Assembly: GCA_948144175.1 (NCBI GenBank)
Contig: CANXME010002275.1
Span: 1,616,001-1,680,000 of the forward strand
Length of the DNA: 64,000 nt
Direction of reading: 5' to 3'
Source: Closterium sp. NIES-65
Taxonomy: Eukaryota; Streptophyta; Zygnematophyceae; Desmidiales; Closteriaceae
A model generated the notes under the pieces. It had not been told where the DNA came from and made no database searches. It saw only the letters and a list, made by a program, of their open reading frames with translations. Positions 9,609 through 42,310 of the stretch are shown piece by piece. Both the position numbers and the translations under genes were made by a program. Numbering within the stretch: the first letter of the stretch is position 1; each line of letters begins with the position of its first letter.

Positions 9609-9805
9609 CACCCCCATAGGCAAAGTGGGGGAGAACAAGAGGTCACAAGACCAGTCAAGCAAAGCAAAGCAAGCTCAGGGTGGATCACAACGTCACCACA
9701 CAGTCTGAGCACAAGAGCAAGGCCAGAAGGCCAGTTCATATGCAAGATCATATATAAAGGTAAACAAGCAAGTGCAGGTATAGAAAGATCACAGTACAAG
9801 CAAGG

Positions 9806-13806: not shown

Positions 13807-13824
13807 CTGACTCGACGCAGCTAC

Positions 13825-15741: not shown

Positions 15742-16876
15742 GACTGCAAAGGTCTAGCAAAGAGTGAGCTCACCAGTACGGGTAAGGAGGGCCGGGGCGC
15801 GCCAGTAGGACTGGTAGCAGCTCGACGGCAGGGCGGCTCGGCGGCTCAGCTGCTAGGCTGCTGGGCGGCTCGGCTGTCGGGCGGCTTGGCGGTCAGCTGC
15901 TGGGTGGCTCAGCGGCTCGGCTGCTGGGCGGCTCGGTGGCTCTGCTGCTGGGCGGCTCGGCTGTCGGGTGGCTCGGCGGCTCGGGCAGCTCGGCGGCTCT
16001 GCTTCTGGGCGGCTCGGCTGTCGGGCGGCTCGGCGGCTCTGCTGCTGGGCGGCTCGGCTGCTCTCCTGCTGGGCGGCTCGGCGGCTCTGCTGCTGGGCAG
16101 CTCGGTAGGGGCGGCTTGGGGCCGTTTAGGGACGGCGATAGGGCCGTGTAGGGGCGGCCACGGGGCCGCTTAGGGTCGGCGACGAGGCTGCTAAGGCGCG
16201 GCGACGGGGCCGCTAGGTGCGGTGACTGGGCCAGCAGGGGCGGCGACGGGGCCGCTAGGTGCGGCGACGGGGCCGCGTATGGGCGGCGACGGGGCCGCGT
16301 AGGGTGAGGGGCGGTGACGGGGCCGCTGGGGGCGGCGACGGGGCCGCTAAGGGCGGCGACGAGGCCGCGGAGGGGCGGCGACGGGGCCGCGTAGGGGCGG
16401 CGACGGGGCCGCATAGGGTGAGAGGCGGCGACGGGGCCGCTAGGGGCGGCGACAGGGCCGCTAAGGGCGGCGACGGGGCCGCGGAGGGGCGGCGACGGGG
16501 CCGCTAGGGGCGGCGACGGGGCCGCGTAGGATGAGAGGCGGCGACGGGGCCGCTAGGGGCGGCGACGGGGCCGCTAAGGGCGGCGACGGGGCCGCGGAGG
16601 GGCGGCGACGGGTCCGCTAGGGGCGGCGACGGGGCCGCGTAGGGTGAGAGGCGGCGACGGGGCCGCTAGGGGCGGCGACCGGGCCGTCAAGGGCGGCGAC
16701 GGGGCCGCTTATGGGCCGTAACGGGGCCGCGTGAGGGGCGACGACGAGGCCGCTAGGGGCCACTAGGGGCCTTGAAAGGGCGGCAAAAAGCGCGCCTCGG
16801 GCAGGAGCGATTGGCGCTCCGGTTAGAAGGGAAGTTTTCAGTGGTGGGCCCAAGGTAGCGTTCCCACTAGGGAACT
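15742..16876 (-). repeat. GC-rich tandem-repeat leader of nested copia element
   Basis: Between primer site and gag lie two arrays. One of about 25-30-bp GCGGCTCGGCTGCTGGGCG units lies at 15840-16110. One of GGGGCGGCGACGGGGCCGCT units lies at about 16150-16790. All frames are low complexity. The same kind of leader occurs in the other copia and coding-free elements here. Confidence 0.8.
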
Positions 16877-16888
16877 TGCTCTATACCA
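16877..16888 (-). other. Primer binding site of nested copia element
   Basis: Immediately inside the 5' LTR the minus strand reads TGGTATAGAGCAAG, matching the initiator tRNA-Met 3' end pattern TGGTATCAGAGC with one change. Confidence 0.8.
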
Positions 16889-17013
16889 TGTGAAGAATGA
16901 GGAATGAATGAACTAGCAAGCAGGTGGGTACAAGTAGGAAAACCTAGAAGTGTTGTACCCCATATTGTCTACCCCACTGTAGCCTACACAGACTATAGTA
17001 TAAGAGTTTGATA
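16889..17013 (-). repeat. 5' LTR of nested copia element (125 bp)
   Basis: It is a full-length match of 9484-9608. Its outer end reads GATA where the other copy reads GACA, so the terminal dinucleotide has mutated. The duplication GCTTT follows at 17014-17018. Confidence 0.93.
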
Positions 17014-17810
17014 GCTTTCCCGCACGAGTAGCTCGTTAGCGTAGACTGGTTGCGTATGCGCTGGTCCACTACACCGAGCTCCATGGGAGTAGGACCGTTG
17101 AAGCGGTTCGTATGTCCAGCAGTGGTGGGTTGCCCGATTCGACCTTGGAATCTCTGGTACGCTGCAAAGTTGATGGTGTCAAAACGCTCGGCGACACGAA
17201 TCATCTCATTCAATGTCGTAGCGCCGCGGAGTTCAACCTCGGTACGAATTTTTGGCTTCAGACCACGCTTAAATTTGTCCATCTGTTCAGCAGCAGGGAT
17301 GTTAGGGATCTCAAGCACGAGCTCGCGGAAGCGGTTGATGTACTTAGGGACCGAGCGATGCTGGCGTAATTCAGCAAGGTTGTCACGTGCGCGCTCGATG
17401 GCGTTGACCGGTTCGAAGTTCATTCTGAGAGATGCAGAAAATTCCTCCCAAGTTGAAATCGCAGCGTGGCAGCTCTGCCACCAAGTAGCAACAGCTCCTC
17501 GTAGCATCATGACAGCGTGACGAGCCCACTCAGCTTGGTTCACGTGGCATAGGAACAGGTACTCCTCCATTTGGAAAAGCCAACTTCCCACAGGTAAGTC
17601 CCGTTTTCCAGGGACAAACGGCTCAGGTTGAGGTGCTTTCAGACGTGCAGAGACCACAGCAGGTGCTGGCGCCGGCACCTGTGTGCCCAGGAGTCCACGT
17701 TCCTGGAGTTCGCCGAGGATCCGGTCGCGCACCTCGCGTTCAATTTCTCGGCGCATATTGGCGACAAACTCGTTCCAGAGTTCTGGAGTCATATCAGACG
17801 GCCCAGCCAT
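17014..17810 (-). pseudogene. gypsy gag, N-terminal part, cut by the copia insertion
   Basis: The frame starts ATG at 17810 (MAGPSDMTPELWNEFVANMR). It has the gypsy Gag pattern: FVPGKRDLPVGSWLFQMEEYLF near residue 75, AVMMLRGAVATWWQSC, LAELRQHRSVPKYINRFRELVLEIPNI and QMDKFKRGLKPKIRTEVEL, followed by PTPMELGVV. The zinc knuckle begins SYSCGKA and is completed on the other side of the insertion at 9483 (GHIKRHC). The first Cys of CX2CX4HX4C is Ser here. Capsid assembly is its usual role. The coding part shown is open, so it was not badly decayed before the insertion. Confidence 0.88.
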
Positions 17811-22938: not shown

Positions 22939-25900
22939 ATGACTCATTTGCGGAGACAGCGCTCGCTTCCGTCATTCGCGGGGCCGCGCATTGCCTTGCT
23001 CATAGTAGCCGTAGCGCACGTCGTCGCGGCGGGTCCACTTGCGACGCTCCGTCGCGTGGAAATCGTCTCAGGCGATACAGCCGCTGTGGCTGTAGCCAGC
23101 CATCGCCGGAGTGCGCTAAACACAGCAGTCGTCACGTTGTCGCCGCCGCCACCCGTAGCGCCTTCGACTTCTGGTAAACCCTTGGCGCCGCCGGCCGCAC
23201 CGCAACCTCCCGGCTCCAGCGGGAACGCGTCGGCAAGCGAGTACGGCCCGGAGTTCCCGCCGACGTACGACCAACGTGAGTTGCGACGCTTCCTTCTCCG
23301 TTATGATCTTGTCGCTATTGCGTGTCGCACCCACAGTGTGTCAACTGCGACGCACACATCCTGATCCCGTTACAGTTTCGCTCAGCTGAAACCAGTCCGT
23401 CGGATGGAGAGCCACAATCAATCTCCAACCGCCCGAATCGGCAAACAGTAAAAAACCAGCGGAATCTTACGAAAGTTGCTCTTGTCTGTGCGCGTGCCTA
23501 TGCGCGTGCGCGAGTGCGTGCGCGGGGGAATGGCAGGGCTGGCGTTGGCGGAGCTGCGGGTGGCGATGGACCCGGAGGGCTTGGAGCTGGAGTCGTGGGA
23601 CTCGGACGTCGGCTGGCCCTTCTGGATGGGCGTCCAATGCGACCAGTGGAACCAAGTCATCAAACTGTACGTGAGCCAAGTCGTCAAACTGTACGACAGC
23701 CAAGTCGTCAAACTGTACGTCAGCCAAGTCGTCAAACTGTACGTCAGCCAAGTCGTCAAACTGTACGTCAGCCAAGTCGTCAAACTGTACGTCAGCCAAG
23801 TCGTCAAACTGTACGTCAGCCAAGTCGTCAAACTGTACGTCAGCCAAGTCGTCAAACTGTACGTCAGCCAAGTCGTCAAACTGTACGTCAGCCAAGTCGT
23901 CAAACTGTACGTCAGCCAAGTCGTCAAACTGTACGTCAGCCAAGTCGTCAAACTGTACGTCAGCCAAGTCGTCAAACTGTACGTCAGCCAAGTCGTCAAA
24001 CTGTACGTCAGCCAAGTCGTCAAACTGTACGTCAGCCAAGTCGTCAAACTGTACGTCAGCCAAGTCGTCAAACTGTACGTCAGCCAAGTCGTCAAACTGT
24101 ACGTCAGCCAAGTCGTCAAACTGTACGTCAGCCAAGTCGAGCACTTTCGGCATCGTTCTTGAGTTCTCGGATGGCCGTGCAGTGCCACCACCCGAGCGAG
24201 TTGTCCAACTGTACGAACAAATCGTCCAACTGTACGAACGAATCGTCCAACTGTACGAACGAATCGTCCAACTGTACGAACGAATTGTCCAACTGTACGA
24301 ACGAATCGTCCAACTGTACGAACGAATCGTCCAACTGTACGAACGAATTGTCCAACTGTACGAACGAAAATCGTCTAACTGTACAAACGGATTGTCCAAC
24401 TGTACGAACGAATCGTCCAACTGTACGAACGAATCGTCCAACTGTACGAACGAATCGTCCAACTGTACGAACGAATCGTCCAACTGTACGAAGGAATTGT
24501 CCAACTGTACGAACGAATCGTCCAACTGTACGAACGAATCGTCCAACTGTACGAACGAATCGTCCAACTGTACGAACAAAATCGTCCAACTGTACAAACG
24601 GATTGTCCAACTGTACGAACGAATCGTCCAACTGTACGAACGAATCGTCCAACTGTACGAACGAATCGTCCAACTGTACGAACGAATCGTCCAACTGTAC
24701 GAACGAATCGTCCAACTGTACGAACGAATTGTCCAACTGTACGAACGAATTGTCCAACTGTAGGAACGAATTGTCCAACTGTACGAACGAATCGTTCATC
24801 CCAATATCCCCTGCCCGTGCCCATCCCATTCCCCCGCCCGCGCCCATCCCATTCCCCCGCTCGCGCCCATCCCATTCCCCCACCCGTGCCAATCCCCATT
24901 CCCTTTCCCCCCACCCGCCCATCCCTATCCCCCCTCTCCCCCCATGCTCCTACACAGGTCGCTGAGCGGCAACGAGCTGACGGGCAGCATCCCCGAAGGC
25001 ATCTCGCACCTCACCGCGCTGCAGCACCTGTGAGTCTCGGCTGTAGCACAGCTGCGGGTCACGGCTAGACGGCTGTAGCACAGCTGCGGGTCACGGCTAG
25101 ACGGCTGTGCTATAGTCGTCTCTCTTGAGGCATGGGGCTGTGGCTTGCGGCATAGGTATAGGAGCATGGAGCATGGGGCATGGGGCTTGGGGCATGGGGC
25201 ATGGGGCATGGGGCACGGGGCATGGGGCATGGGGCATGGGAAAGAGACGTTTTGGTTGCCGTGTAGGACGCTCCCCTCTCAACCTCCATGTCACCCGTCC
25301 CCTCCTCTCCCCTGCCCCTTGTGTTTCCCATCGGCCCTATCATGAATCGGTCGCGCGTGATGGGCCACGCCACGGGCACGAGCACGGGCAAGCGCAGGGA
25401 CGTGAGGGGCAATGTGCTGCAGGGGTCGCTGGTGGGGGACATCGGCCGCCTCTCCGCCCTCACCTACCTGTTAGTGCCGCATTGCGCCCTGCGCCCTGCG
25501 CCCTGCACCCTGCGCCCTGCGCCCTGCGCCCTGCGCCCTGCGCCCTGCACCCTGCGCCCTGCGCCCTGCGCCCTGCGCCCTGTGCCCTGCAGTCTGCTCA
25601 CACATGTTGGCTGCACTGCACTGCACTGCACTGCACTGCACTGCACTGCACTGCACTGCACGCACATCCCTGCCGATCCACCTGCCTCCCCCCACCACAT
25701 CCGAGTGCCCCCCATCACATCCGAGTGCCCCCCATCACATCCGAGTGCCCCCCATCACATCCGTGTGCCCCCCATCACATCCGTGTGCCCCCCATCACAT
25801 CCGTGTGCCCCCCATCACATCCGTGTGCCCCCCATCACATCCGTGTGCCCCCCACGGCACCACCTCTCATTCTCCCTCCCCTTCATTTCCCGCTCCCGCT

Positions 25901-28900
25901 CTCGTCCCTCCGCCTCCTCGCCATTCTCACCCCCATCTCCCCTTCCCCTTCCCCAATGCTCCCCCATGCTCCCTTCCCCCTTGCTCCCACTCCCCATGCG
26001 GCCACCCCCCATGCGGCCACCCCCATGCGGCCACCCCCCATGCGGCCACCCCCATGCGGGCACCGCCCATGCGGCGACGGGGCATGCGGGCACGGGCCAT
26101 GGGCACAGGGACCTGTCCAACAACCGCATCAACGGCTCGCTGCCTCACTCGCTCTCCAACCTCACCGCCCTGCGCCACCTGTGCGTGTCTCACTGCGGGC
26201 TCTCACTGCATCCCTGCATGCTCTCACTGCATCCCTGCATGCTCTCACTGCATCCCTGCATGCTCTCACTGCATCCCTGCATGCTCTCACTGCATCCCTG
26301 CATGCTCTCACTGCATCCCTGCATGCTCTCACTGCATCCCTGCATGCTCTCACTGCATCCCTGCATGCTCTCACTGCATCCCTGCATGCTCTCACTGCAT
26401 CCCTGCATGCTCTCACTGCATCCCTGCATGCTCTCACTGCATCCCTGCATGCTCTCACTGCATCCCTGCATGCTCTCACTGCATCCCTGCATGCTCTCAC
26501 TGCATCCCTGCATGCTCTCACTGCATCCCTGCATGCTCTCACTGCATCCCTGCATGCTCTCACTGCATCCCTGCATGCTCTCACTGCATCCCTGCATGCT
26601 CTCACTGCATCCCTGCATGCTCTCACTGCATCCCTGCATGCTCTCACTGCATCCCTGCATGCTCTCACTGCATCCCTGCATGCTCTCACTGCATCCGTGC
26701 ATGCTCTCACTGCATCCCTGCATGCTCTCACTGCATCCCTGCATGCTCCCCACTCGTCTCGTGCATGCCACATGCGTCCATGCCCCACGTGCCTCTACTG
26801 CCCCACGTGCCTCTACTGCCCCACGTGCCTCTACTGCCCCACGTGCCTCTACTGCCCCACGTGCCTCTACTGCCCCACGTGCCTCTACTGCCCCACGTGC
26901 CTCTACTGCCCCACGTGCCTCTACTGCCCCACGTGCCTCTACTGCCCCACGTGCCTCTACTGCCCCACGTGCCTCTACTGCCCCACGTGCCTCTACTGCC
27001 CCACGTGCCTCTACTGCCCCACGTGCCTCTACTGCCCCACGTGCCTCTACTGCCCCACGTGCCTCTACTGTCCCACGTGCCTCTACCGCCCCACGTGCCT
27101 CTACTGCCCCATTCCCATAGCACCATTCCCATTGCACCATTCCCATAGCACCAATCCCATAGCACCATTCACCAAGCGCGCCCACGCCATCTCCCAACCC
27201 AGTTCCACCTTCCCTCGCCCCCTCTGCCCATCTCCCCTTGTCCCCTCGCCGACCCTCTCTGCTTCTCCCCGTGCCCTCCTCCCAACCCTAACTCCCCTCT
27301 CCCCCTCCCCCCATCCCCCTCCCACCATCACCCTCCCCCCGGCAGCGACCTGCATCATAATCCCATCAGCGGCGCGCTGCCCTCCTCCATTGCCGCCCTC
27401 TCGCTGCTCACTCGACTGTGAGTCGCGCTAAACTCACCAGGTTACTCACTGAGAAGCTTACCGGTATCACCGCACCACCAACTCTTGCCACACCACCAAC
27501 TCTTGCCACACCACCAACTCTTGCCACACCACCAACCCATGCCACACCACCAACTCTTGCCACACCACCAACCCATGCCACACCACCAACTTATGCCACA
27601 CCACCAACTCTTGCCACACCACCAACCCATGCCACACCACCAACTTATGCCACACCACCAACCCATGCCACACCACCAACTCTTGCCACACCACCAACCC
27701 ATGCCACACCACCAACTTATGCCACACCACCAACCCATGCCACACCACCAACCCATGCCACACCACCAACCCATGCCACACCACCAACCCATGCCACACC
27801 ACCAACCCATGCCACACCACCAACCCATGCCATACCACCAACCCATGCCTCACCACCAATAATGGCCCTCTCCTCTCCTCTCGCCCCCGACATGTTGTCC
27901 GCGCCCGTTGGTCCTCCTCCGTGTGCGCCCTGAGCAGCGATCTACACGATGTTGACTTCACGCCCGCCCCGCTGCCGCCCTCTCTTGGCGCCCTCTCCTC
28001 CCTCCACTACCTGTGAGACCCCCTCCCTCCACTACCTGTGAGACCCCCTCCCTCCACTACCTGTGAGACCCCCTCCCTCCTCCTCCCTTGGTCCTCCTCT
28101 TGCCCCCTCCTCGTTCTCCCATCCCCCCCTGTCGCTTTCAACGCATGCATGGCAACGCATGCACGGCAACGCATGCACGGCAAGGCATGCACGGCAACGC
28201 ATGCACGGCCAGGCATGAGGTTAGAAAACCATCCCATCCCATCCCATCCCACCATCCCATCCAATGCCATCCCATCCCATGCCATGCCACGCCAAGCCAT
28301 GCCACGCCAAGCCATGCTATCCCCCGTGGCGCCGAATGCTGCTCGCTGTATGTCACTCCCATGCGCTCTTCCACTTGCCCCCCTCTCTCACCCATCGGCC
28401 TCTTCCTCCCCCCCTCCTCCACGCGGGGCAAGGCAGCGACCTGGCATACACGCACCTCACCGGCCCGCTGCCCGCCTCCATCGCCAACCTCTCCGCCCTC
28501 AACTTCCTGTACGCCCCGCCCCGCCCCGCACCGCCCCCTCTTGCCCGCATGTGCCCTGCCACGCCATGCTGTGCCCTGCCACGCCATGCCGTGCCTTTTT
28601 GACCTCCTCTCACACCACCAACGCACCACCATGCTCTCCCCTGCAGAATTCCCTCCTCTCTTTTCTCTCTTCATGCCCACCCCTCACCACCGTGCTGTAC
28701 CGTACCATGCCATGCCATTCCATGCCTTGTACGCCACACCACTCTGCACCTCACCGCACCTCGCCCCGCACAGCTCGGTGGACGGCAACGCCCTCACGGG
28801 CTCCATCGACATCTTCCCTCCCAACTCCTCCCTGCAAGCCATGTGAGTCCAAGCCATGTGAGTCCAAGCCATGTGAGTCCAAGCCATGTGAGTCCAAGCC

Positions 28901-31900
28901 ATGTGAGTCCAACGCATGTGAGTCCAAGCCATCTGAGTCCAACGCATGTGAGTCCAACGCATGTGAACCTATCGCAGTTGACCATGTAACTGGCAATGCT
29001 GCCGCTTCCCTCACCTCACCTCTGCTTGCTCGTTCCTTCCTAATATCCCTCTCTTCCCCTCTCCTCCCCTTCCTCCGACCCCTCTCCTGTTGCCCTCCCC
29101 CTCTTCCCTTTCTCTCACCTGCCCCTCGACTACCCACATCTTGCTGTGCATCCGCGGTCATGCCCGGGCATGTGCCAGTCTAGCGGGGCACAACCAGCTG
29201 GAGGGGGCGGTGCCGGACGTGGCGCTGCATCCGCGCCTGCGCCTGCTGTCACTGCACGACAACAACCTCACGGGCCCCGTGCCCGCCGCCGACCTCAACT
29301 CCTCCACCACCACCGTCGTGTCAGTCCCCTCCCCTCTCAACCCAACCCGCCCCATCCTCCTCACTTCCCTCTCAACCCAACCCGCCCCATCCTCCTCACT
29401 TCCCTCTCAACCCAACCCGCCCCATCCTCCTCACTTCCCTCTCATCCCAACCCGCCCCATCCTCCTCAATTCCCTCTCATCCCAACCCGCCCCATCCTCC
29501 TCAATTCCCTCTCATCCCAATCCGCCCCATCCTCCTCAATTCCCTCTCATCCCAATCCGCCCCATCCTCCTCACTTCCCTCTCATCCCAACCCGCCCCAT
29601 CCTCCTCACTTCCCTCTCATCCCAACCCGCCCCATCCTCCTCACTTCCCTCTCATCCTAACCCGCCCCATCCTCCTCACTTCCCTCTCAACCCAACCCGC
29701 CCCATCCTCCTCACTTCCCTCTCAACCCAACCCGCCCCATCCTCCTCACTTCCCTCTCATCCCAACCCGCCCCATCCTCCTCAATTCCCTCTCATCCCAA
29801 CCCGCCCCATCCTCCTCAATTCCCTCTCATCCCAATCCGCCCCATCCTCCTCACTTCCCTCTCATCCCAACCCGCCCCATCCTCCTCACTTCCCTCTCAT
29901 CCCAACCCGCCCCATCCTCCTCACTTCCCTCTCATCCTAACCCGCCCCATCCTCCTCACTTCCCTCTCAACCCAACCCGCCCCATCCTCCTCACTTCCCT
30001 CTCATCCCAACCCGCCCCATCCTCCTCACTTCCCTCTCATCCCAACCCGCCCCATCCTCCTCACTTCCCTCTCATCCCAACCCGCCCCATCCTCCTCACT
30101 TCCCTCTCATCCCAACCCGCCCCATCCTCCTCACTTCCCTCTCATCCCAACCCGCCCCATCCTCCTCACTTCCCTCTCATCCCAACCCGCCCCATCCTCC
30201 TCACTTCCCTCTCATCCCAACCCGCCCCATCCTCCTCACTTCCCTCTCATCCCAACCCGCCCCATCATCCTCACTTCCCTCTCATCCCAACCCGCCCCAT
30301 CCTCCTCACTTCCCTCTCATCCAAGGTAAAAAAAAACGACTGTATTTTTGAAAATTTACCGTAAAAAACGGTACCGTAAAAAACGGTACCGTAAAAAACG
30401 GCCGTAAAAAACGGTAAAAAACGGTTCCAAAAGGTGATTTTCGTCTAAAGAAAAAATCGGCCATATTATGGGACCGAATTGATGGGAAAAACCACCAGGA
30501 TGAAGAGGACGATCCCCTCTTTGCTTGTGTGCATGCGTAAGCATGATCGAAAATGTATTCGACCTTGTTTTTGCCTTTTTTTTCTTGGTGATAAGAGTTC
30601 TCTAACAAAAAAACGGCCGTATTTTTGAAAATTTACCGTAAAAAACGGACCGTAAAAAACGGACCGTAAAAAACGGTTACCGTATTTTTGAACCTTGCTC
30701 TCATCCCAACCCGCCCCATCCTCCTCACTTCCCTCTCATCCCAACCCGCCCCATCCTCCTCACTTCCCTCTCATCCCAACCCGCCCCATCCTCCTCACTT
30801 CCCTCTCATCCCAACCCGCCCCATCCTCCTCACTTCCCTCTCATCCCAACCCAACCCGCCGTCTCTTTCCAATCCACCAGTCAGCGGCCTGGCCGCACAT
30901 TCATTCTCGTGGCCTCCACTGTGTTGTGTTGTGGTGGAACGCCAAACGTGGCACAACCTCCTCTCCCCGCACCTTGCACCTCCGCTTACCCCTTTTCCCC
31001 TTCCTCCCCCTCCGTTCGCCTATTTGCCCTCGGTGTGTCAGCCTGGCGGGCAACCCGCTATGCACGTCATCGCGCTACTACAGCACGTGCAATGTGTGGC
31101 AGCAGCGCCGCCTCTGCACGCTGCCGTGCAGCAGCAGCGGCGAGAGCCCGAGCCCGGTGGAGTACGTGCGGTCGCAGGAGTGCGTGTGCGCGCTGCCCGT
31201 GGTGGTGCGGCTGTTCCTGCAGAACCCCTCCTACACGCTCTTCAACTCGGAATACGCCGACCGCTTTCAGCGCGATGTCGAAGCACAGCTCAATCTGCAG
31301 GAGGGGCAGGTGGGTGGTGACGGCTGGGGAGAAGGTAGGGTGAGCGTGGGTTGGGGGAGGCAGTGAGGATGAGGGGGGTGGGGACAGGTGGGAGCGGCTG
31401 GTCCTGCAGAACCCCTCGTACGCTCTTCACCGCTCTTCACCGCCGACCACGCCGACCTCTTCCAGGCGGACGAGCAGGCGCAGGTGCAGGTGCACGAGGG
31501 GCCGGTGCGTGACGGCTGGGGGACGGCACCTTGGCGTGGGTGCAGGTGGGGCCGAGGTGGGTTCAGGTGGGGGCAGGTCGGTGGAGTGGGGTGAGGGATG
31601 GGAGCATGTGGGTGGGGGTTGAGAGTAGGTAGGTGGGTAGAGGGCAACTGGTACGGGAGGGAAGGAGGGCGTGTGTTGTGTTGGTCCACGTGCAAGCGGG
31701 CATTCGTGGTGCCCGACGCCCGTGTGTACTCCATGTGCCACACAACACAACACAAGGCTCACTCTGCCCCTCCCATCTCCTTCACATGCCGCCCACTCAC
31801 GCATGCCGCCCACTCACTCATGCCGCCCACCCACGCATGCCGCCCACTCACTCATGCCGCCCACTCAATCATGCCGCCCACGCATGTGTATGGGCAGGCG

Positions 31901-34900
31901 TGGTTGGACAGTGTGAGTCAGCGCGAGGACAACCTGGAGGTCGCCACACTGCGCATCTACTCTGCCAAGGTGATCTACCCTGCCAAGGTGATCTACCCTG
32001 CCAAGGTGATCTACCCTGCCAAGGTGATCTACTCTGCCAAGGTGATCTACCCTGCCAAGGTGATCTACCCTGCCAAGGTGATCTACCCTGCCAAGGTGAT
32101 CTACCCTGCCAAGGTGATCTACCCTGCCAAGGTGATCTACCCTGCCAAGGTGATCTACCCTGCCAAGGTGATCTACCCTGCCAAGGTGATCTACCCTGCC
32201 AAGGTGATCTACCCTGCCAAGGTGATCTACCCTGCCAAGGTGATCTACCCTGCCAAGGTGATCTACCCTGCCAAGGTGATCTACCCTGCCAAGGTGATCT
32301 ACCCTGCCAAGGTGATCTACCCTGCCAAGGTGATCTACCCTGCCAAGGTGATCTGCCCCCCACCCTCTCTGCCCCCCACCCTCTCTGCTCGCCAGCTTCC
32401 ACCCTCCACACGCCATCCTTGCCCCTCCACACGCCATCCTTGCCCCTCCACACGCCATCCTTGCCCCTCCACACGCCATCCTTGCCCCTCCACACGCCAT
32501 CCTTGCCCCTCCACACGCCATCCTTGCCCCTCCACACGCCATCCTTGCCCCTCCACACGCCATCCTTGCCCCTCCACACGCCATCCTTGCCCCTCCACAC
32601 GCCATCCTTGCCCCTCCACACGCCATCCTTGCCCCTCCACACGCCATCCTTGCCCCTCCACACGCCATCCTTGCCCCTCCACACGCCATCCTTGCCCCTC
32701 CACACGCCATCCTTGCCCCTCCACACGCCATCCTTGCCCCTCCACACGCCATCCTTGCCCCTCCACACGCCATCCTTGCCCCTCCACACGCCATCCTTGC
32801 CCCTCCACACGCCATCCTTGCCCCTCCACACGCCATCCTTGCCCCTCCACACGCCATCCTTGCCCCTCCACACGCCATCCTTGCCCCTCCACACGCCATC
32901 CTTGCCCCTCCACACGCCATCCTTGCCCCTCCACACGCCATCCTTGCCCCTCCACACGCCACCCTTGCCACTCCACTCCACCCTGTATCGCGCCTCGCCT
33001 CTCCTCTCCAAGTCCTTTCCAATCATCACATCCCTTCCCACTTTTTGCATCCGCTCCCAATCATCGCATCCCTCTTAAGCTACTCTCCTTGTCCCTCCTC
33101 TCCTCTCGACCCCTTCCCTCTCTCCCTTCCGCTCCCACCTCCCCTCCCCCCCTTGGCCAGGTGGAGGTGCCATGGACGGAGGAGCAGAGGGGGCAGCTGT
33201 ATGCGGCGTTGGGGCGCCTCACGCGCCTTAGTGCCATCTTTGGAGGCGTCACGTTCGGTGAGGGCCCTCCTTGCTCAAGTAACAGGGCCGCGTTTGCCGC
33301 ACCACCCACTGTCATGTCCTCTCATCAGTGCCCCACCTCGCCCCACCTCGCCCCACCTCGCCCCACCTCGCCCCACCTCGCCCCTGCTGGCCCGTGGTGG
33401 CCCGTGGTGGCCCGTGGGATGAGAGGTGCTGTACAGTTGTCCCACTCTGCTTGCCCTCTGGATTGGTGCTCTCTTTTCTTTCAGGGCAACCAAAAATGTT
33501 TCTGGCAGACCATGGACGTAAAGTCGTTCTAGGCCCACAAAAGTAAACATATGTTAACCACGTAAAGTCATGTAAACGTAAACCTTTATAAACGGAACTG
33601 CCAACTTAGCACACACGGTCACTCGTTCCTGCCACTGCCTCTGTTGTCACCCTTGCCCTTCCCTTCCCTTCCCTTCTCTTCCCTTCCCTTCCCTTCCCTT
33701 CCCTTCTCTTCCCTTCCCTTCCCTTCTCTTCCCTTCCCTTCCCTTCTCTTCCCTTCTCTTCCCTTCTCTTCCCTTCTCTTCCCTTCCCTTCCCTTCCCTT
33801 CTCTTCCCTTCCCTTCCCTTCCCTTCCCTTCCCTTCCCTTTCCTATCTGTCTCACGGTGCCGCCATCCCGCCCTCCCCACAGATGGCCCGCCACCCCCAC
33901 CAGTGCCCAGCCCGCCACCGCCCCCGCCCACGCTCGCAGTCACCACTGAAAGCAGTACGCCCCCCCTCGCTGCCTCCCCTGCCACTGCCTCTCCTCATGC
34001 CTTGTGCTTCCTTCCCACTCTTCCCTCATCCCAATATTCACCCCTTGCATTCTTTACTCATCTAATTCTGCAATCTTCTCTCCCTCCTCTGTCTCTTCCC
34101 CGTCCGCCCTCCTCCCTGTGCGCGCCTGGGTCAACGTGCCCCGTGCGTGCCGGTGCGTGCGTGCAGAGAGCACATTCCCGGTGTGGGCCATAGTGGTCAC
34201 GGCCGTGGGGCTGCTGTGCTTCGCCGCCTCGCTGCTGCTGCTGCTCTGGCTGCGCCACCAACGCAGACGCCAGATGCTCCGTGAGTGCCGCCCGCATTCT
34301 CAGTGAGTGCCGCCCGCATGCTCAGTGAGTGCCGCCCGCATGCTCAGTGAGTGCCGCCCGCATGCTCAGTGAGTGCCGCCCGCATGCTCAGTGAGTGCCG
34401 CCCGCATGCTCAGTGAGTGCCGCCCGCATGCTGACAGTTGGAAGGACCAGACGGGCCAGCATGAGAGGTGTGGGGCCAAGGGGCAGAAGTGTGAGAGGCA
34501 GGGGCGAGGAGAGGATAGGAGGAGTGGCTTGGAGGAGCAGCACGTGAGCAGCGTGCGGTGAGCCACAGGGACGACCTTCGAGTCTGTCTCTTCTCACCTG
34601 CTCTGCACGAGCGACTGCCACACCTTGCCCTCTTCCCTGCTCTGCTTCCATCAGCAATGCAAAGAGTGCGCATGTGAATACCCCCAACGTCACCTGCCCT
34701 CCCCCCCCAGGGCCCAGCAAGTCGAAGCTGACAATGCGCCTGCAGGAGCAGTTTGTGCGCCCCATCGCGCTGGCGGAGATCGAGGCGGCCACGGACGGCT
34801 TCTCGGAGGCGCGGCTGCTGGGCGTGGGCGGGTACGGGTCCGTGTACCGCGGGGACGGGCTCAACGGCGAGCAGTGGGCCGTCAAGCGTGCCACAGTCAC

Positions 34901-37900
34901 CACCGTGCAGTCCATGGGCGTCTTTCAGAACGAGGTGAGTCCATGGGCGTCTTTCAGAACGAGGTGAGTCCATGGGCGTCTTTCAGAACGAGGTGAGTCC
35001 ATGGGCGTCTTTCAGAACGAGGTGAGTCCATGGGCGTCTTTCAGAACGAGGTGAGTCCATGGGCATCTTTCAGAACGAGGTGAGTCCATGGGCGTCTCTC
35101 AGAACGAGGTGCACGGGGGATGAGGGGATGAGGCGTGCAAAGGGATTGCAAGGTAGCGTTGATGGAACTGCCCCTCTCGCCCCCCGATCCGTCCTGTTTT
35201 CCATCCTCCTCCATTGCATTGCATGTGCACCCCTCCTAATCGGCGGCCTTGTGTCGTTTTCTTCCACTCGCCTGCTGCCTTTTGTCAACTTCCACCCGCC
35301 TCCCTTCCCCCGCCCTCCACCCCCCCTGTCCTTCTCCTCTATATCCTGCTCTCCCTCTCCCCTGCTCCGTTCTGCGCCCCATGTCCCACGAGCCACACAT
35401 CACCACCGTGATGCCAGCGGTTAATGTCAGCTCGTGGAATAGGCTACACCTTGCTGGTCTTTGGTTATTCAGGTTACAACTTTCAGTTAGTTTAGTTTTA
35501 GGTTGGGTTGGGTGTAGACTTTTTTATCCCCAACCTATCCAACCCTATCCATCCAACCCTATCAATTCAGGATCTTCATGATTTGGATGGACTCCTCAAA
35601 TCGCCTCCTGCTGTCACGTCATCCACCCAACCCAACCCGTCCTAGCGAGCGATAGTAAAGCCATGTACCTCTCTTTCGAATCAATGCGGCCACTTTGCCG
35701 TGCCCAGCATGCGCTGCCGCCCTGCCCGCCACGTGCACGTGATACCATCACAAGCCCCACGCACTCACCGCACTGCCTTACGAGCCTCGAACCACCTGCG
35801 CTCTCCCTCCCCTCCCACGCCGCCCTCCACACACCCTGTCCACCAGGTGCGCCACCGCAGCCTGATGCCGCAGGGTTGACACGCGTCAACCACCCAATCC
35901 GACCGCCCCATCATTGCCCAATCCCGACCACCCCATCATTGCCCATCTCCCCCCCCCCCCCCCCCCCATCATTACCCATCTCACCCCCCCCCATCATTAC
36001 CCATCTCACCCCCCCCCATCATTACCCATCTCACCCCTGGCCATCATTGCCCATCTCACCCCTGGCCATTGTGATCCATCGTCCCCCCCCCGGGCACCAG
36101 GTGGACGTGATATCGGCCATGAGCCACCGCAACCTGATAGCGCTGCTGGGGTACTGCGAGGACAAGGGCGAGCAGATCCTTGTCTACGAGTTCGCCGCTA
36201 ACGGCACCCTCTCCGCCCACCTGCGCCCGCCCGCCGGTGAGCGCCAGTCGATGGGTGCGTGGGAGGCCGCTGCCACGCACATGTGTGTGTGGCTGCATGG
36301 CTGGGTGGGTGGGTCCATGGGTGGGTGGGTGGGTGCATGGGTGCATGGGTGCATGGGTGCATGGGTGGGTGGGTGGGTGCATGGGTGGGTGGGTGGGTGC
36401 ATGGGTGGGTGCATGGGTGCATGGGTGGGTGGGTGGGTGCATGGGTGCATGGGTGGGTGCATGGGTGCATGGGTGGGTGCATGGGTGGGTGGGTGGGTGC
36501 ATGGGTGGGTGCATGGGTGGGTGGGTGGGTGCATGGGTGGGTGGGTGGGTGCATGGGTGGGTGGGTGGGTGCATGGGTGGGTGGGTGGGTGCATGGGTGG
36601 GTGGGTGTGGGTGCATGGGTGGGTGGGTGGGTGCATGGGTGGGTGGGTGGGTGCATGGGTGGGTGGGTGCGTGGGTGGTTGGGTGGGTGCGTGTGGGTGA
36701 CATTGAGCACGAGTGGCAGTGTGCGCAGACTGCCTCTGCACCAGTCGTGGCAGCTATCACTGTGCAGTGCTGTGGGGCTTTGTGCCGCTACTCTTTTCTC
36801 GCCCTATATTTCTCCTCTCCTCTTTAACCACCCTTCACCCCCTTACGTGCCTCCCTTAACTTCCTCTGCTTCCTTTCCTTTCCTCCCCGTCCTTTCTGTA
36901 TCGTCCCCACCCACCCCTCCCCCCACCCACCCCTGTGAGCAGACAAGCCGACGGCGCCGCTGACGCTGCAGCAGCGGGTGGAGGTGGCGCTGGGGGCGGC
37001 GCAGGGGCTGTTCTACCTGCACTCGTTCGCGCGCCCGCCCGTCATCCACCGCGACGTCAAGTCCGGCAACATCCTGCTCGACCAAGACATGCAGGTGGGT
37101 ATGGCCGGGGTACACTTGCAGGTGGGTGTGGCCGGGGTACACTTGCAGGTGGGTGTGGCCGGGGTACACATGCAGGTGGGTGTGGCCGGGGTACACTTGC
37201 AGGTGGGTGTGGCCGGGGTACACTTGCAGGTGGGTGTGGCCGGGGTACACTTGCAGGTGGGTGTGGCCGGGGTACACTTGCAGGTGGGTGTGGCCGGGGT
37301 ACACTTGCAGGTGGGTGTGGCCGGGGTACACTTGCAGGTGGGTGTGGCCGGGGTACACTTGCAGGTGGGTGTGGCCGGGGTACACTTGCAGGTGGGTGTG
37401 GCCGGGGTACACTTGCAGGTGGGTGTGGCCGGGGTACACTTGCAGGTTGGAGACGGTATTGCGGGTCGGAGGAACATGTGCGAGGGGGAAGGGGAATGCG
37501 GGTGGGGATAAAAGTGGAGGGAGAGGGGGACATATGGGAGGGGATATGCAGGCGGGGGTGTGCATGTGCGCTCATGCTCCTCTGTCGCTGCCTTGAACGT
37601 CCGAGGTTGTTTCCCACACCACTGTCGCTGTGTGGCCCTTGTCCCCCTCCGCCCGTCCCCGCGACTGCCCCGCTGTGTGTTTCCCTCCTCTCCTCCTCTC
37701 CCTGCGCGTGTGTGCACAGGCGAAGGTGGCGGATTTTGGGCTGCTGAAGGCGTCCAAGGGCGAGGGCGTGGCGCACAGCACGCAGGTGGCGGGCACGCCG
37801 GGGTACCTGGACCCCGAGTACTACTCCGCCTTCAAGGTCACCGCCAAGAGCGACGTGTACAGGTGCCAGCACGCTCTTCCATCTTCATGTCATGCCCGCT

Positions 37901-39781
37901 CTGCTCCCTGCCCCGCATGCTATGCCTTTTGCTCACGCACTCCCCTATGGACCCCCCACCCCCCCTCCGCTCACACGCAGCTTCGGCGTGGTGCTGCTGG
38001 AGATCCTGACGGGGCTGCCGCCCATCTTTGAGAGCCTCGACGCCAATGAGTCCACCGACGGCGAGCGCCAGATGACCAGCCTGGCCAGATGGGTGAGAGG
38101 CGCAATGGGTGAGAGGCGCAATGGGTGAGAGGCGCAATGGGTGAGAGGCGCAATGGGTGAGAGGCGCAATGGGTGAGAGGCGCAATGGGTGAGAGGCGCA
38201 ATGGGTGAGAGGCGCAATGGGTGAGAGGCGCAATGGGTGAGAGGCGCAATGGGTGAGAGGCGCAATGGGTGAGAGGCGCAATGGGTGAGAGGCGCAATGG
38301 GTGAGAGGCGCAATGGGTGAGAGGCGCAATGGGTGAGAGGCGCAATGGGTGAGAGGCGCAATGGGTGAGAGGCGCAATGGGTGAGAGGCGCAATGGGTGA
38401 GAGGCGCAATGGGTGAGAGGCGCAATGGGTGAGAGGCGCAACGCAATGGGTGAGAGGCGCAATGGGTGAGAGGCGCAATGGGTGAGAGGCGCAATGGGTG
38501 AGAGGCGCAATGGGTGAGAGGCGCAATGGGTGAGAGGCGCAATGGGTGAGAGGCGCAATGGGTGAGAGGCGCAATGGGTGAGAGGCGCAATGGGTGAGAG
38601 GCGCAATGGGTGAGAGGCGCAATGGGTGAGAGGCGCAATGGGTGAGAGGCGCAATGGGTGAGAGGCGCAATGGGTGAGAGGCGCAATGGGTGAGAGGCGC
38701 AATGGGTGAGAGGCGCAATGGGTGAGAGGCGCAATGGGTGAGAGGCGCAATGGGTGAGAGGCGCAATGGGTGAGAGGCGCAATGGGTGAGAGGCGCAATG
38801 GGTGAGAGGCGCAATGGGTGAGAGGCGCAATGGGTGAGAGGCGCAATGGGTGAGAGGCGCAATGGGTGAGAGGCGCAATGGGTGAGAGGCGCAATGGGTG
38901 AGAGGCGCAATGGGTGAGAGGCGCAATGGGTGAGAGGCGCAATGGGTGAGAGGCGCAATGGGTGAGAGGCGCAATGGGTGAGAGGCGCAATGGGTGAGAG
39001 GCGCAATGGGTGAGAGGCGCAATGGGTGAGAGGCGCAATGGGTGAGAGGCGCAATGGGTGAGAGGCGCAATGGGTGAGAGGCGCAATGGGTGAGAGGCGC
39101 AATGGGTGAGAGGCGCAATGGGTGAGAGGCGCAATGGGTGATAGGCGCAATGGGTGAGAGGCGCAATGGGTGAGAGGCCTATTGGTGGGATGGGCACAAG
39201 AAGGAGTCAGTCCTCCCCCCCCTGCTCTCAGCTCAGTCCCCCCCTCCCCCTGCTCTCACCTTGTCTCACTGCTCCTCCCTCCTCCATCAGCTACACTCAG
39301 TGTTTCTTTCCTCCCTCACTTCTCACTCCCCAAGTATGCTCCACTACAGCCGCCTCACACCCCCCTTTCTCACTTTCCCTTCCCCCTGGCCACACCTCTC
39401 CTGCTTCGCCCCTCTCCGCAGTGTGCACCGTACGTGCAGACGGGCAATGTGGCCAAGATAGTGGACCCGCGGCTGGGTGCGGACTGCCCGGTGGACACCG
39501 TCAAGGCCATGGCGGAGGTGGCCATGGCGTGCGTGCAGCGCCACAGCAAGAACCGCCCCGACACGGGCGAGGTGGTGCGGCGTCTGGGGGACATCCTTGC
39601 GCGCCTCACGGGCGACGAGAGCGCCGCCACGCTGGGCCACCTGCGGTCGCAGAGCTCGAATGTGGGCGCCGTTGCCATTCCCGAGGACGGCGAGATTGAT
39701 CCCAACATTGCGCTGGTGGGCAACATGGAGGGGCCGTACGATGAGAGCACTGCTGCCATGTCACAGATCATCCCGCGCTGA
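22939..39781 (+). CDS. LRR receptor-like kinase (LRR-VIII-1-like), 21 exons, 953 aa
   Basis: Exons: 22939-23275, 23537-23666, 24958-25029, 25398-25469, 26109-26180, 27346-27417, 27938-28012, 28437-28508, 28774-28842, 29179-29319, 31042-31309, 31898-31969, 33161-33257, 33883-33954, 34167-34280, 34711-34934, 36101-36236, 36943-37094, 37720-37862, 37981-38092, 39422-39781. All introns are GT-AG, phases agree and the sum is 2862 nt. A signal-peptide-like segment (residues about 15-33) is followed by an LRR N-cap ([12 protein letters not shown]), about eight LRRs mostly on single 72-nt phase-2 exons ([15 protein letters not shown]), and a Cys-rich juxtamembrane region with [18 protein letters not shown], as in the hydrogen-peroxide-sensing LRR-VIII-1 kinases. 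Then come a Pro-rich stretch, a membrane helix near 546-566 ([20 protein letters not shown]) and a kinase with [23 protein letters not shown] and DFG, so it is probably active and of RD type. It likely signals at the plasma membrane; the ligand is unknown. Exons 1-2 are the least certain. Confidence 0.85.
23652..24138 (+). repeat. Donor-anchored minisatellite, intron 2 (24 bp x about 20)
   Basis: The unit begins with the donor-like GTACGTCAGC and ends with TCGTCAAACT, a copy of the last bases of exon 2. The first unit straddles the exon-intron boundary at 23666/23667. Its frame is open and would encode repeats of VKLYVSQV if not spliced. Confidence 0.92.
24203..24793 (+). repeat. Minisatellite, intron 2 (21 bp x about 28)
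   Basis: The unit is GTCCAACTGTACGAACGAAT plus C, with a few variants. AACTGTACG resembles the exon-2 donor, so it may derive from the neighbouring 24-bp array. Confidence 0.9.
25030..25397 (+). repeat. Intron 3: 32-bp duplication and CATGGGG heptamer array
   Basis: A 32-bp unit starting CGGCTGTAGCACAGC is present about 2.3 times from 25037. A GGGGCAT heptamer array runs at about 25158-25241. Confidence 0.8.
25470..26108 (+). repeat. Intron 4: four short tandem arrays
   Basis: A GCCCTGC heptamer runs at about 25484-25592, CTGCA pentamers at 25611-25660, a 20-bp unit ATCCGTGTGCCCCCCATCAC about nine times at 25690-25850, and CATGCGGCCACCCC units at 25995-26065. Confidence 0.85.
26181..27345 (+). 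repeat. Intron 5: 21-bp array (about 26 copies) and 18-bp array (about 18 copies)
   Basis: CTCTCACTGCATCCCTGCAT plus G repeats from 26199 to about 26750, starting 18 bases after the donor. CCCCACGTGCCTCTACTG repeats from about 26782 to 27106. Confidence 0.9.
27474..27853 (+). repeat. Intron 6: 18-bp array, about 21 copies
   Basis: The unit is ACCAACCCATGCCACACC, with CTCTTG and CTTATG variants interspersed in a higher-order pattern. Confidence 0.9.
27998..28076 (+). repeat. Intron 7: donor duplicated in 25-bp units (3 copies)
   Basis: The end of exon 7 (CCTCCACTACCT) and the donor GTGAGACC occur three times in tandem, so three equivalent 5' splice sites lie 25 bp apart at 28013, 28038 and 28063. 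Use of the second or third would shift the frame. Confidence 0.93.
28828..28980 (+). repeat. Intron 9: donor-anchored 15-bp array (about 9 copies)
   Basis: The unit GTGAGTCCAAGCCAT starts at the donor and ends with the exon-9 end (GCCAT). One copy has CTGAGT. Read through from the exon, the second codon is TGA, so only the first donor keeps the frame. Confidence 0.93.
29335..30860 (+). repeat. Intron 10: 35-bp array, about 32 copies, interrupted by a MITE
   Basis: The pyrimidine-rich unit (CCCAACCCGCCCCATCCTCC, then TCACTTCCCTCTCAT) runs 29335-30321 and again 30698-30858. Variants AATTCC and CTCAACC form blocks, and a block of about 350 bp appears twice (29340-29690, 29690-29980), which suggests a large duplication inside the array. 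Confidence 0.9.
30322..30697. mobile_element. hAT-type MITE, 376 bp, inserted in the intron-10 minisatellite
   Basis: The ends are CAAGGT and ACCTTG (the latter within GAACCTTG). The 8-bp duplication CTCTCATC lies at 30314-30321 and 30698-30705, a length characteristic of hAT elements. Near both ends there are CCGTAAAAAACGG motifs and a shared segment GTATTTTTGAAAATTTACCG. There is no coding capacity. Confidence 0.85.
31390..31527 (+). pseudogene. Frameshifted duplicate of the end of exon 11
   Basis: CGGCTGGTCCTGCAGAACCC to GACGGCTGGGG copies 31204-31335 (exon end, donor and early intron) with divergence. It would encode [20 protein letters not shown] against [20 protein letters not shown] in the real exon. 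A 10-bp duplication (CGCTCTTCAC twice, 31421-31440) shifts its frame. It lies within intron 11 and is probably skipped. Confidence 0.8.
31952..32353 (+). repeat. Intron 12: donor-anchored 18-bp array (about 22 copies)
   Basis: The unit GTGATCTACCCTGCCAAG ends with the exon-12 end (GCCAAG) and starts with its donor GTGATC at 31970. The frame stays open across all units (VIYPAK repeats), so use of a later donor would lengthen the protein by 6 residues per unit. Confidence 0.93.
32396..32970 (+). repeat. Intron 12: second array, 21 bp x about 27
   Basis: Units of ACACGCCATCCTTGCCCCTC plus C are nearly identical, which suggests recent homogenisation. Confidence 0.92.
33651..33842 (+). repeat. 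Intron 13: polypyrimidine array (CCCTTCCCTT/CTCTT)
   Basis: Almost 190 bases consist only of C and T on the plus strand, with mirror symmetry of CCCTT units. An earlier CGCCCCACCT decamer array lies at 33331-33380. Confidence 0.85.
34271..34432 (+). repeat. Intron 15: donor-anchored 22-bp array (about 7 copies)
   Basis: Each unit starts GTGAGTGCCGCCCGCATGCT. The unit end ATGCTCA resembles the exon-15 end ATGCTCC. The donor is at 34281. Confidence 0.92.
34906..35108 (+). repeat. Intron 16: donor-anchored 29-bp array (about 6-7 copies)
   Basis: The last 23 bases of exon 16 (CATGGGCGTCTTTCAGAACG, then AG) together with the donor GTGAGT are repeated directly after the real donor at 34935. A 29-bp unit means that later donors shift the frame. 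Confidence 0.93.
36290..36700 (+). repeat. Intron 17: GGGTGGGTGGGTGGGTGCAT array (G-quadruplex prone)
   Basis: Tetramer GGGT runs are broken by GCAT. Many stretches hold four or more G-triplets separated by single T bases on the coding strand. Confidence 0.9.
37090..37447 (+). repeat. Intron 18: donor-anchored 27-bp array (13 copies)
   Basis: The unit starts with the donor GTGGGTGTGGCCGGGGTACA and ends TTGCAG, a copy of the exon-18 end (ATGCAG). Each unit junction CAG|GTGGGT could act as donor or, with its AG, as acceptor. The frame is open (VGVAGVHLQ repeats). Confidence 0.93.
38082..39178 (+). repeat. Intron 20: donor-anchored 16-bp array (about 67 copies)
   Basis: The unit GTGAGAGGCGCAATGG starts at the donor (38093) and ends with a copy of the exon-20 end (ATGG). 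Apart from one partial duplication near 38440 and one GTGATAGG variant near 39138, the units are almost identical over 1.1 kb. Confidence 0.94.
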
Positions 39782-39981
39782 GTGGTTGCCGTGTCCATGC
39801 GTGAACATGAAACCAGAGCAGCATGGGTACTAATGGACGTCTCGGTATGGGCACGTGTTTACAGCAGAAATAAAGTATAGGGTCCTTTTATAAGACACAA
39901 TTTGTATTAAGATTTATTGAATGGATGCACTATCAGGCCCCGAATATAAGCGGGTGCGCTTATGACAACATCCTGAATAGG
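39782..39981 (+). other. 3' UTR and downstream sequence of the kinase gene
   Basis: AATAAA at 39869-39874 lies 88 bases after the stop codon and is the likely polyadenylation signal. AT-rich sequence follows. Confidence 0.6.
39869..39874 (+). terminator. Polyadenylation signal AATAAA
   Basis: This canonical hexamer follows the stop codon at 39779-39781 at a distance normal for a 3' UTR. Confidence 0.55.
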
Positions 39982-40033
39982 TGGGTGTTTGTGCTTATAA
40001 CATGATGGCCGCCCATGTGCTGTGAAGAGCTGT

Positions 40034-40060
40034 CCTCTACGAGGACATTCCTCGTAGAGG
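40034..40060. other. Perfect 12-bp hairpin
   Basis: CCTCTACGAGGA and TCCTCGTAGAGG flank the loop CAT. Function unknown; it lies in the 5' part of the presumed DNA transposon. Confidence 0.6.
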
Positions 40061-40178
40061 AGCGGCTCGGGGTCCTCTGGAGGGAGAGCTCTGGCAGGGG
40101 GGTTAGTCCGGCTGGAACTTCATTTTGTGCTCATGGAGCTTGAGATTAGCTCAACCCTAGCTCGAGGCTGGCTCTACC

Positions 40179-42310
40179 ATGCGTAGGAAAATCCCTGTAA
40201 AAATGTTGTGCCCTCGTCCTAACGTCCAGGTTAACAACTATGGGCGCATCAGCTCGCCCGGTGACGACATACAGATAGCGATGGCGAAAATGACGCACAA
40301 GCCGACATCCTTGGCGGGATGCTGTAACGCCAGCTCAGGTGCGAGCAGTGACGAGGAGGAAGGCGACGAGGACCACGGCGACGAGGGCAACGAGGATTGG
40401 CCGGAGAACAGGCACAGTGACAGAGCATCTAAAATTAACGTACATGCTGGCGGGATCGAGGATGACGAGGGGCGGACGCGGCCAATCGGCTAGGGCGATG
40501 AAGTGGAAGAGTGGCGCGCCAGGTACTCTGATGACGACGGAGGTGCGGATGCGGCGGAATCTGCGGATGCTGATGCGCCTGGAACTGCGCATGCTGCAGA
40601 TGAGGAAGCGGTGGCGACAGTGCAAGCCCCCGCGGCCACGAGTGAGGATGTGGATGCGGGAGCGACCGTGGATGCGGCAGCGGATGCGGATGCGGCAGTG
40701 GTTGCGGATGCGATTGCGGTAGCGATGCGGATGCGGATGCAGATGCTGCTGATGCTGGCGCGGATGCTGACTTCTTTGAAGGAGAAGACGAGGACGACGA
40801 CTTCTATCGCCTCGATGACGACGATGTGCCTTTGTTGAAGAGGAAGCTGCGTCTTCATCTGCGCGGCACCACTAAACGCACAAGGGTGGTGCTCTCAGAC
40901 GACGACATCCCTGTGGAGGAGCCTCAACACCGCCTCAGTGCTGCTGAGAAGGGGAAGATGAAGATTGTTGAAGGCCCATCCAATGAATACCGTCGCCGTC
41001 GCACGTGGAAGGCGAAGAAAAAGAACGATGGATCATCGGTTTCCAGCAAGGGTGCGAAGAAGAAGAAGACCGCCCAGGGCACGGATTACATCGTCGTCAA
41101 CGAGATGCACGTGAGCAACGATGAGTATGCCACGGCTGCACGACCACTTCCCTCTTTCCCTGAGAACGCGAAGCCTAAAGACCTCACACTTCGTAACGCT
41201 GATTCCCGTCCTCCATCCCCACGCAGTCGCGGTGAGAAACGGACTAGGCGCTCTTGGAGCGTGCGTGAGAAGATGAGGTGGGCGCGACGCTACAAGGAGC
41301 CCAGCTCCCTCAAGAAGACATTATTTGAATCCTCTGCCTCCGTTGCGTGCATTCGACGATGGGCTGCGCAGACGGATTCGGGTGCGTAGAAGGGTGCGAC
41401 GAATTGCTGCAAGCGTCTAAACGGCACGGGCCACCACTCACACCACCCCGACATGGAGGCGGCATTGTACCGGTACATCTGTCTATAGCGATCAAAGGGG
41501 GTGGCGATATCCGTGAAGGACACGTAGAAGTGGAGCCGCAAATGGATGAAGAGACACCATCCCGACAAGAACTGGAAGGCGTCATCTCGCTGGAGTCAAC
41601 GCTTCCGCGACCGCTGGAACTTGGTCATGCGTATGAAGACCAAGGATTGTGAGTTGTATGTAAAATTCACCTTGGATCGTGGACTGAAAATGCCTAGCAT
41701 TGAAAATACCTCATGTTCTAACATTCCCTCTTCAAATGCGGTTCCTTTCCATGGCAGAATGAGCTAAGGACTGTGAGGCAGTCTGGAACTTCATCAGGAT
41801 CAACCGTGCCCAACATAACATCGACCTCACCCCATCATCAACGCGGACCAAACACCTCTCTTCATCGAAATGCCGGCCGAGAGGACCCTTGACCACTAGC
41901 GCGAGCTCTGTCCCAATCCGCACCCCTGGCTACGAGAAGACGCGGCTCACCGAAATGCTCACGTGCACGGCATCCGGGGAGAAGCTGCGCCCGTGGGTTT
42001 GGTTCAAAATGAAGAACGTGTCGACGTGTGAAGTTCTCAAAGGTAAGCGGCAACACCTTGGGTTTGACAGATTAGTTCTTGAGTGATGTTCCGCAGCTTG
42101 TTGGCTCTGATGCTTTCATCTCCCTCTATGCCTGGCAAGAGTCGTGGTCCACGTACAGGATAACGGGTGGATGGACGAGGATGCAATGAAGACATGGCTG
42201 ACCAAGGAGGTGCTGCCCCATCTCAACCCCAAGCGCGGCCATAACATGAGGCGTGCTATGCTGGTGTTGGATACCTACCGAGGCCACATCACCCATATCA
42301 TGCTTCAAGC
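40179..42310 (+). pseudogene. pogo/CENP-B-like transposase, N-terminal and central part
   Basis: The reading shifts between frames. An acidic start (SSDEEEGDEDHGDEGNEDW) and a DADADA-rich stretch at 40503-40800 are followed by a basic, Lys-rich segment and SWSVREKMRWARRYKE, which may be the start of the helix-turn-helix. WSQRFRDRWNLVMRMKTKD at about 41590-41650 fits the CENP-B-type second DNA-binding helix. The DDE domain begins with RLTEMLTCTASGEKLRPWVW at 41949-42008 and continues with VQDNGWMDEDAMKTWL and AMLVLDTYRGHITHIM (second catalytic Asp, about 42258-42300). Stops and frameshifts separate these pieces. A copia element cuts the frame near 42310. Confidence 0.7.

Follow-up and report, generated by a model that had tools for sequence, protein, structure and literature searches.

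Tandem arrays across eight 5' splice sites of one Closterium receptor-like kinase gene, probable counterparts of the amphioxus mirage minisatellites

Why should eight of the twenty introns of a single gene begin within a tandem array whose repeat unit carries the 5' splice site itself, and how can such a gene still yield an orderly message? The question is posed by a gene for a leucine-rich repeat (LRR) receptor-like kinase in the alga Closterium sp. NIES-65. It lies in a stretch of 64,000 nucleotides of contig CANXME010002275.1 that was analysed as a whole and is called the window here. Any answer depends on the exon model (Table 1). Exons 2 to 21 form one open frame of 840 residues with a single final stop, the 19 introns between them all follow the GT-AG rule, and the donor of intron 1, which completes the set of 20, is GTGAGT. 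The spliced product is 98% identical to a deposited protein of the same strain (P0001), with the whole query covered, and tblastn with P0001 matched 20 of the 21 exons. The exception is the proline-rich exon 14, whose junctions are consistent with P0001 despite the missing match. Both the kinase domain and the leucine-rich repeats of the protein exceed the Pfam cut-offs, and close relatives occur in the strains NIES-68 (P0002, 84%) and NIES-53 (P0003, 89% over part). Given the frame, the GT-AG borders and the matches to P0001, the exon boundaries of the original prediction, which had been drawn from the letters of the DNA, are sound. The scripts for the statistics, the exon-tail search, the donor similarity and the GC skew used a provisional exon 1 (23148-23274 instead of 22939-23275); the array counts are unchanged by this, because intron 1 has no array. 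Beyond the kinase, P0001 extends into sequence encoded at approximately 40218-41386 (within 39782-41386 of the window), which is probably a fusion of two adjacent genes in the annotation. According to passages of the genome paper, the NIES-65 annotation was made with Augustus and PASA using RNA-seq (PMC10407611).

Eight of the 20 donors are crossed by a tandem array, and none of the 20 acceptors is. The arrays were taken from a set that kept the best-scoring row of each overlapping group of Tandem Repeats Finder (TRF) predictions with a score of at least 50; periods below 10 were excluded where stated. The eight introns (2, 7, 9, 12, 15, 16, 18 and 20), the periods and the donors are as first described, but the arrays do not start exactly at the exon-intron boundary, as had been claimed. 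Their starts lie 4, 5, 7, 8, 15, 15, 16 and 26 nt upstream, within the exon, and in all eight cases the boundary falls inside the first repeat unit. Within the arrays TRF matches are 93-100%, and every unit contains the GT donor, mostly intact across copies. Counting the first copy, the donor hexamer is kept in 7/9 copies in intron 9, 22/22 in intron 12, 7/7 in intron 15, 6/7 in intron 16 and 13/14 in intron 18. The in-register count for intron 20, 22/68, is too low as a measure of intact donors, because the register shifts after copy 22.

Table 1. The kinase gene, its donor-spanning arrays and related intronic copies. Positions refer to the window; the slash marks the exon-intron boundary, followed by the last exonic position. 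Copy number is array length divided by period (the TRF value for intron 20 is 67.8).
Feature	Position	Strand	Unit (bp)	Copies	Exonic part (nt)	Donor	Remarks
LRR receptor-like kinase gene, 21 exons	22939..39781	+					tblastn with P0001, continuous frame, Pfam
Kinase gene, exon 1	22939-23275	+					
Kinase gene, last exon	39422-39781	+					
Intron 2 donor array A	23652..24139	+	24	20.3	15	ACT/GTACGT after 23666	
Diverged copy of exon 2 tail and donor, in intron 2	24164..24215	+					score 32; 0/1000 shuffles as good
Intron 2 array B	24203..24795	+	21	28.1			begins on donor equivalent of exon 2 copy
Intron 7 donor array	27997..28080	+	25	3.4	16	CCT/GTGAGA after 28012	
Intron 9 donor array	28835..28966	+	15	8.8	8	CAT/GTGAGT after 28842	
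Diverged second copy of exon 11 end, donor and first intron bases, in intron 11	31387..31521	+					
Intron 12 donor array	31955..32358	+	18	22.4	15	AAG/GTGATC after 31969	
Intron 15 donor array	34274..34432	+	22	7.2	7	TCC/GTGAGT after 34280	
Intron 16 donor array	34909..35111	+	29	7.0	26	GAG/GTGAGT after 34934	
Possible diverged 19-nt copy of exon 17 bases 20-38, in intron 16	35848..35866	+					upstream of acceptor; weak
Intron 18 donor array	37090..37447	+	27	13.3	5	CAG/GTGGGT after 37094	
Intron 20 donor array	38089..39178	+	16	68.1	4	TGG/GTGAGA after 38092	

Protein models of three strains bear on which of the many donors is used. No insertion is present at any of the eight array junctions in the NIES-65 protein or in that of NIES-68, nor at the five of eight junctions that are readable in the NIES-53 protein (introns 12, 15, 16, 18 and 20). 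The latter model has anomalies of its own, namely unrelated residues at intron 9, a discrepancy of 30 residues at intron 10 and, at intron 14, a gap; introns 10 and 14 carry no donor-spanning array. P0004, the middle of which appears garbled by eye, was left out of the comparison. Retention of the whole array would introduce a stop codon in five of the eight introns (7, 9, 15, 16 and 20) and open, in-frame repeats in introns 2, 12 and 18. In these last three introns the use of inner donors would likewise yield open in-frame peptide repeats, and introns 18, 12 and 2 may thus give rise to rare splice variants of varied length. From this protein-level evidence we infer that the exon-proximal donor is used at the eight array introns, which fits the earlier suggestion that arrays are tolerated since the outermost donor stays usable.

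In introns 2, 12, 15 and 18 the first copy, which contains the exon end, deviates from the consensus of the array. For intron 12 the exon has TCT (Ser) where the copies mostly have CCT (Pro), which is the state of NIES-68 and NIES-53; at intron 2 the exon reads ATC (Ile) and the copies GTC (Val), the state of NIES-68. On the simplest reading, the arrays of introns 2 and 12 would predate the substitutions in the exons. With inner copies holding the older exon state, the first copy would therefore evolve largely apart from the array. A single inner copy in intron 12 also reads TCT (Ser), and some exchange between the exon copy and this array may have occurred.

Arrays of any kind are abundant in this gene, where they cover 8822 of 13982 intron bases (63%), compared with 96 of 2525 bases in exons 2 to 21 and 7676 of 47366 bases in the remaining window. 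This density in introns and scarcity in exons indicates that births are frequent and filtered. The ratio of eight donors to no acceptors (two-sided sign test by hand, 0.008) agrees with selection against acceptor-spanning duplications; the zero acceptors taken alone have a P of 0.07-0.20 under uniform birth. By how much the donors exceed chance hinges on assumptions that one gene cannot settle. If every array is shrunk to one founding unit and placed uniformly, 1.5-2.6 donor-spanning arrays are expected against eight observed (P from 0.003 to 0.00005, by array filter). When 0-80 nt are protected at the 3' end of the intron, 2.4-3.6 are expected (P from 0.0014 to 0.022; 2.9 and P 0.005 with the last 40 nt forbidden, 3.6 and P 0.022 with the last 80 nt). 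A compact-intron null, in which the arrays were born when the intron had its array-free length only, predicts 2.4-3.5 if no zone is protected, 3.3-4.6 if 40 nt are and 5.7-7.9 if 80 nt are. Its P values range from 0.0018 to 0.56, and eight is unremarkable with 80 nt protected. The original prediction that random birth of minisatellites would not yield eight such arrays thus holds under several nulls and fails under a generous one, the compact-intron null with 80 nt protected. Non-spanning arrays with a period of 10 or more are uniform along the introns (KS P 0.56, n=31), and a broad 5' hotspot is therefore not favoured. A second spliced gene as a control was not found among those 10 of the 98 open frames (at least 150 aa) of the window that were examined; seven of the 10 hit retrotransposon domains, in one case at scores just under the Pfam cut-offs, and three match nothing.

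We consider it likely that these are minisatellites of the amphioxus 'mirage' type, and that duplications across donors survive by means of the exon-proximal donor without any need for a dedicated seeding machinery. Short tandem duplications would arise repeatedly in this array-rich gene, presumably by slippage or fill-in end joining followed by unequal exchange. If such a duplication includes a donor, it should have almost no effect, because the spliceosome would go on choosing the copy next to the exon and leave all further copies in the intron. In contrast, duplications within exons or across acceptors would change the message and be removed by selection. Once established, a donor array could expand freely, as in intron 20 with its roughly 68 copies. 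What speaks against this reading is that several nulls leave a 2- to 5-fold donor excess, which would call for a birth bias, and a modest bias at donors may act alongside tolerance.

A stronger version of such a bias, a process tied to donors (transcription pausing, R-loops or breakage with fill-in end joining) that duplicates them preferentially, would account directly for the observed eight where uniform placement or placement with a protected 3' end predicts far fewer, and for what look like recurrent events at a single donor, that of intron 2. Passages on Lipomyces, moreover, propose donor duplication through repair of asymmetric breaks (PMC7138796). However, no excess is left when compact introns with 80 nt protected are assumed, and the non-spanning arrays show no concentration towards the 5' end. 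The recurrent donor-duplicating process that had been proposed for this gene is thus not established, given that the excess depends on the null, and we regard it as rather unlikely. Its R-loop variant finds no support in base composition: positive GC skew, the sign of the G-rich coding strand of an R-loop-prone repeat, was found in only three of nine donor-array units, while one unit has zero and five have negative skew (intron 7, -0.62). Selection for the arrays themselves, in which rows of U1-binding donors would strengthen or regulate splicing, could explain why the hexamer is retained in most copies, as in introns 12 and 15. Yet recent expansion alone yields near-identical copies, 12 of the 20 introns, including the long introns 5 and 10, do without a donor-spanning array, and retained arrays would add stops in the majority of cases; this alternative appears very unlikely.

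A further possibility is that the arrays represent stages of intron gain through tandem AGGT duplication, a mechanism documented elsewhere (passages of PMC3443670). The motif AG/GT is indeed present at the junction in three units (introns 12, 16 and 18) but is absent from the other five. Moreover, the array ends 212-989 nt short of the acceptor in all eight introns, so that donor and acceptor are not both in the duplicated segment and the array did not make the intron. Intron gain consequently does not fit and is the most improbable of the alternatives. The pattern might also be an artefact of the assembly or of a wrong gene model, as arrays are hard to assemble and gene models near arrays are prone to error, for example in the NIES-53 protein at introns 10 and 14 and in the middle of P0004. 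Against this stand the variation of the units in length, sequence and first-copy variants and the continuous frame, conserved in NIES-68. In addition, passages of the genome paper describe an assembly built from long reads (PMC10407611), in which copy numbers could still be off. We therefore judge an artefact to be highly improbable.

Some introns appear to hold older traces of the same kind of event. Exon-tail searches placed three of the 20 donors (introns 7, 11 and 16) above the pooled 99th percentile of 30.4, with intron 12 just below, and none of the 20 acceptors; the search used exon tails only and is blind to arrays with a short exonic part. In intron 11 the diverged second copy comprises about 109 nt of exon 11 and scores 86 against a shuffle maximum of 32, above the pooled percentile. 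The copy of the exon 2 tail in intron 2 scored 27 in the exon-tail search; the best of the other introns reached 22, and the pooled percentile was not attained. Array B, which starts on the donor equivalent of this copy, scores 32 with its own donor against 16 with the best other donor and may be read as an older donor array. On the acceptor side, the exon 17-like stretch of intron 16 (score 28; 1/1000 shuffles) is the best of 20 comparisons and exceeds the best other intron (18), but stays below the pooled percentile, and the acceptor itself lies outside the alignment. This weak match, which would count against the preferred reading, may indicate that a duplication once reached the acceptor side. 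The shuffle control, which permuted blocks of two bases, is rough, and the stretches were picked after the exon-tail search.

Across the gene, 7 of 33 non-spanning arrays resemble their own donor (rank 2 or better) where 3.3 are expected; leaving out four arrays that start less than 20 nt from the donor, and hence overlap the junction window trivially, the count is 5 of 29 against 2.9. Arrays that lie further upstream in an intron are more uniform than those downstream (permutation P 0.005-0.03 with five filters; P 0.03 without the donor-spanning arrays), and a trend in array length is weaker (P 0.04-0.23). Together, the old exon-tail copies in introns 2 and 11 and the uniformity gradient give a hint that introns have grown from their 5' side, although the gradient could also stem from C-rich downstream arrays closer to the polypyrimidine tract. 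In its full form, which we put forward tentatively and with more doubt than belief, this idea would make the introns a kind of conveyor. They would grow from their 5' ends by recurrent duplication at the exon-proximal donor, the spliceosome committing to the first of many identical donors, while older arrays and copies of exon ends are pushed downstream and decay. If this were true, the introns would be a layered record of past exon ends.

Several features of the window lie outside this argument. An A/T-rich insert of about 375 bp at 30323-30697 breaks up the 35-bp array of intron 10. Its termini are imperfect inverted repeats (CAAGGT...), and it is flanked on both sides by the 9-mer CTCTCATCC, a sign that is ambiguous within an array; these features suggest a small non-autonomous DNA transposon. 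The regions 4219-17810 and 50453-54656 contain pieces of retrotransposons, both Ty3-like and copia-like (integrase, chromodomain, RVT_1, RVT_2, gag). Two distant arrays at 7816-8488 and 49277-49814 have closely similar GC-rich units, and 16106-16760 resembles the reverse complement of these units, both as judged by eye.

Repeats that carry splice sites are known from other systems. The minisatellite in intron 7 of the human factor VII gene has units with donor copies at the start of the intron, in a single intron. The amphioxus mirages are described, in passages of two papers, as minisatellite-like tandem duplications over an exon-intron boundary in Adh3, the globins BflGb6 and BflGb9 and troponin C, with similar repeats in PGBD5; many units contain splice signals, those of Adh3 measure 10-72 bp, and the messages are spliced normally (PMC3087553, PMC3902484). 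Repeats that span the boundary and splice signals within the units are common to these passages and to the Closterium arrays. The described mirages, however, affect both boundaries, with one in each globin gene named, whereas the Closterium gene, from a streptophyte alga, has eight, at donors only, with units of 15-29 bp in as many as about 68 copies. With two defining features present and undisturbed splicing suggested at the protein level, the Closterium gene would be best filed with the mirages. In Chlamydomonas and Volvox, passages of a survey report dense tandem repeats in introns that are commoner near intron-exon junctions; their density (units of 1-50 bp) is U-shaped over both intron ends, unlike the uniform non-spanning arrays of Closterium, and these passages report no boundary-spanning arrays (PMC3887541). 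In intron gain by tandem genomic duplication, as far as the passages describe it, splice signals are duplicated too, but the Closterium arrays make no new intron (PMC3443670). The stwintrons of Lipomyces, in the passages that describe them, resemble the Closterium introns in a proposed duplication of the donor where an existing intron begins; they differ in that a single additional copy, 4-7 nt long, is present, both donors are used and there is no array (PMC7138796). Among the literature matches listed, by title and opening of the abstract, which say little about print at large, there was no description of donor-spanning minisatellites in Closterium or another streptophyte.

The gene thus extends the mirage phenomenon of lancelets to Closterium, and does so in dense form. 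It stands out by the number of arrays that a single gene carries, by their restriction to donors and by its lineage. Closterium belongs to the Zygnematophyceae, the sister group to land plants. For splicing, the locus poses a clean question, namely how the first among about 3 to 68 near-identical donors is chosen. For the genome, it illustrates how introns might grow longer while the protein stays unharmed, and if the bias towards donors holds genome-wide, it would explain part of the intron growth in array-rich genomes.
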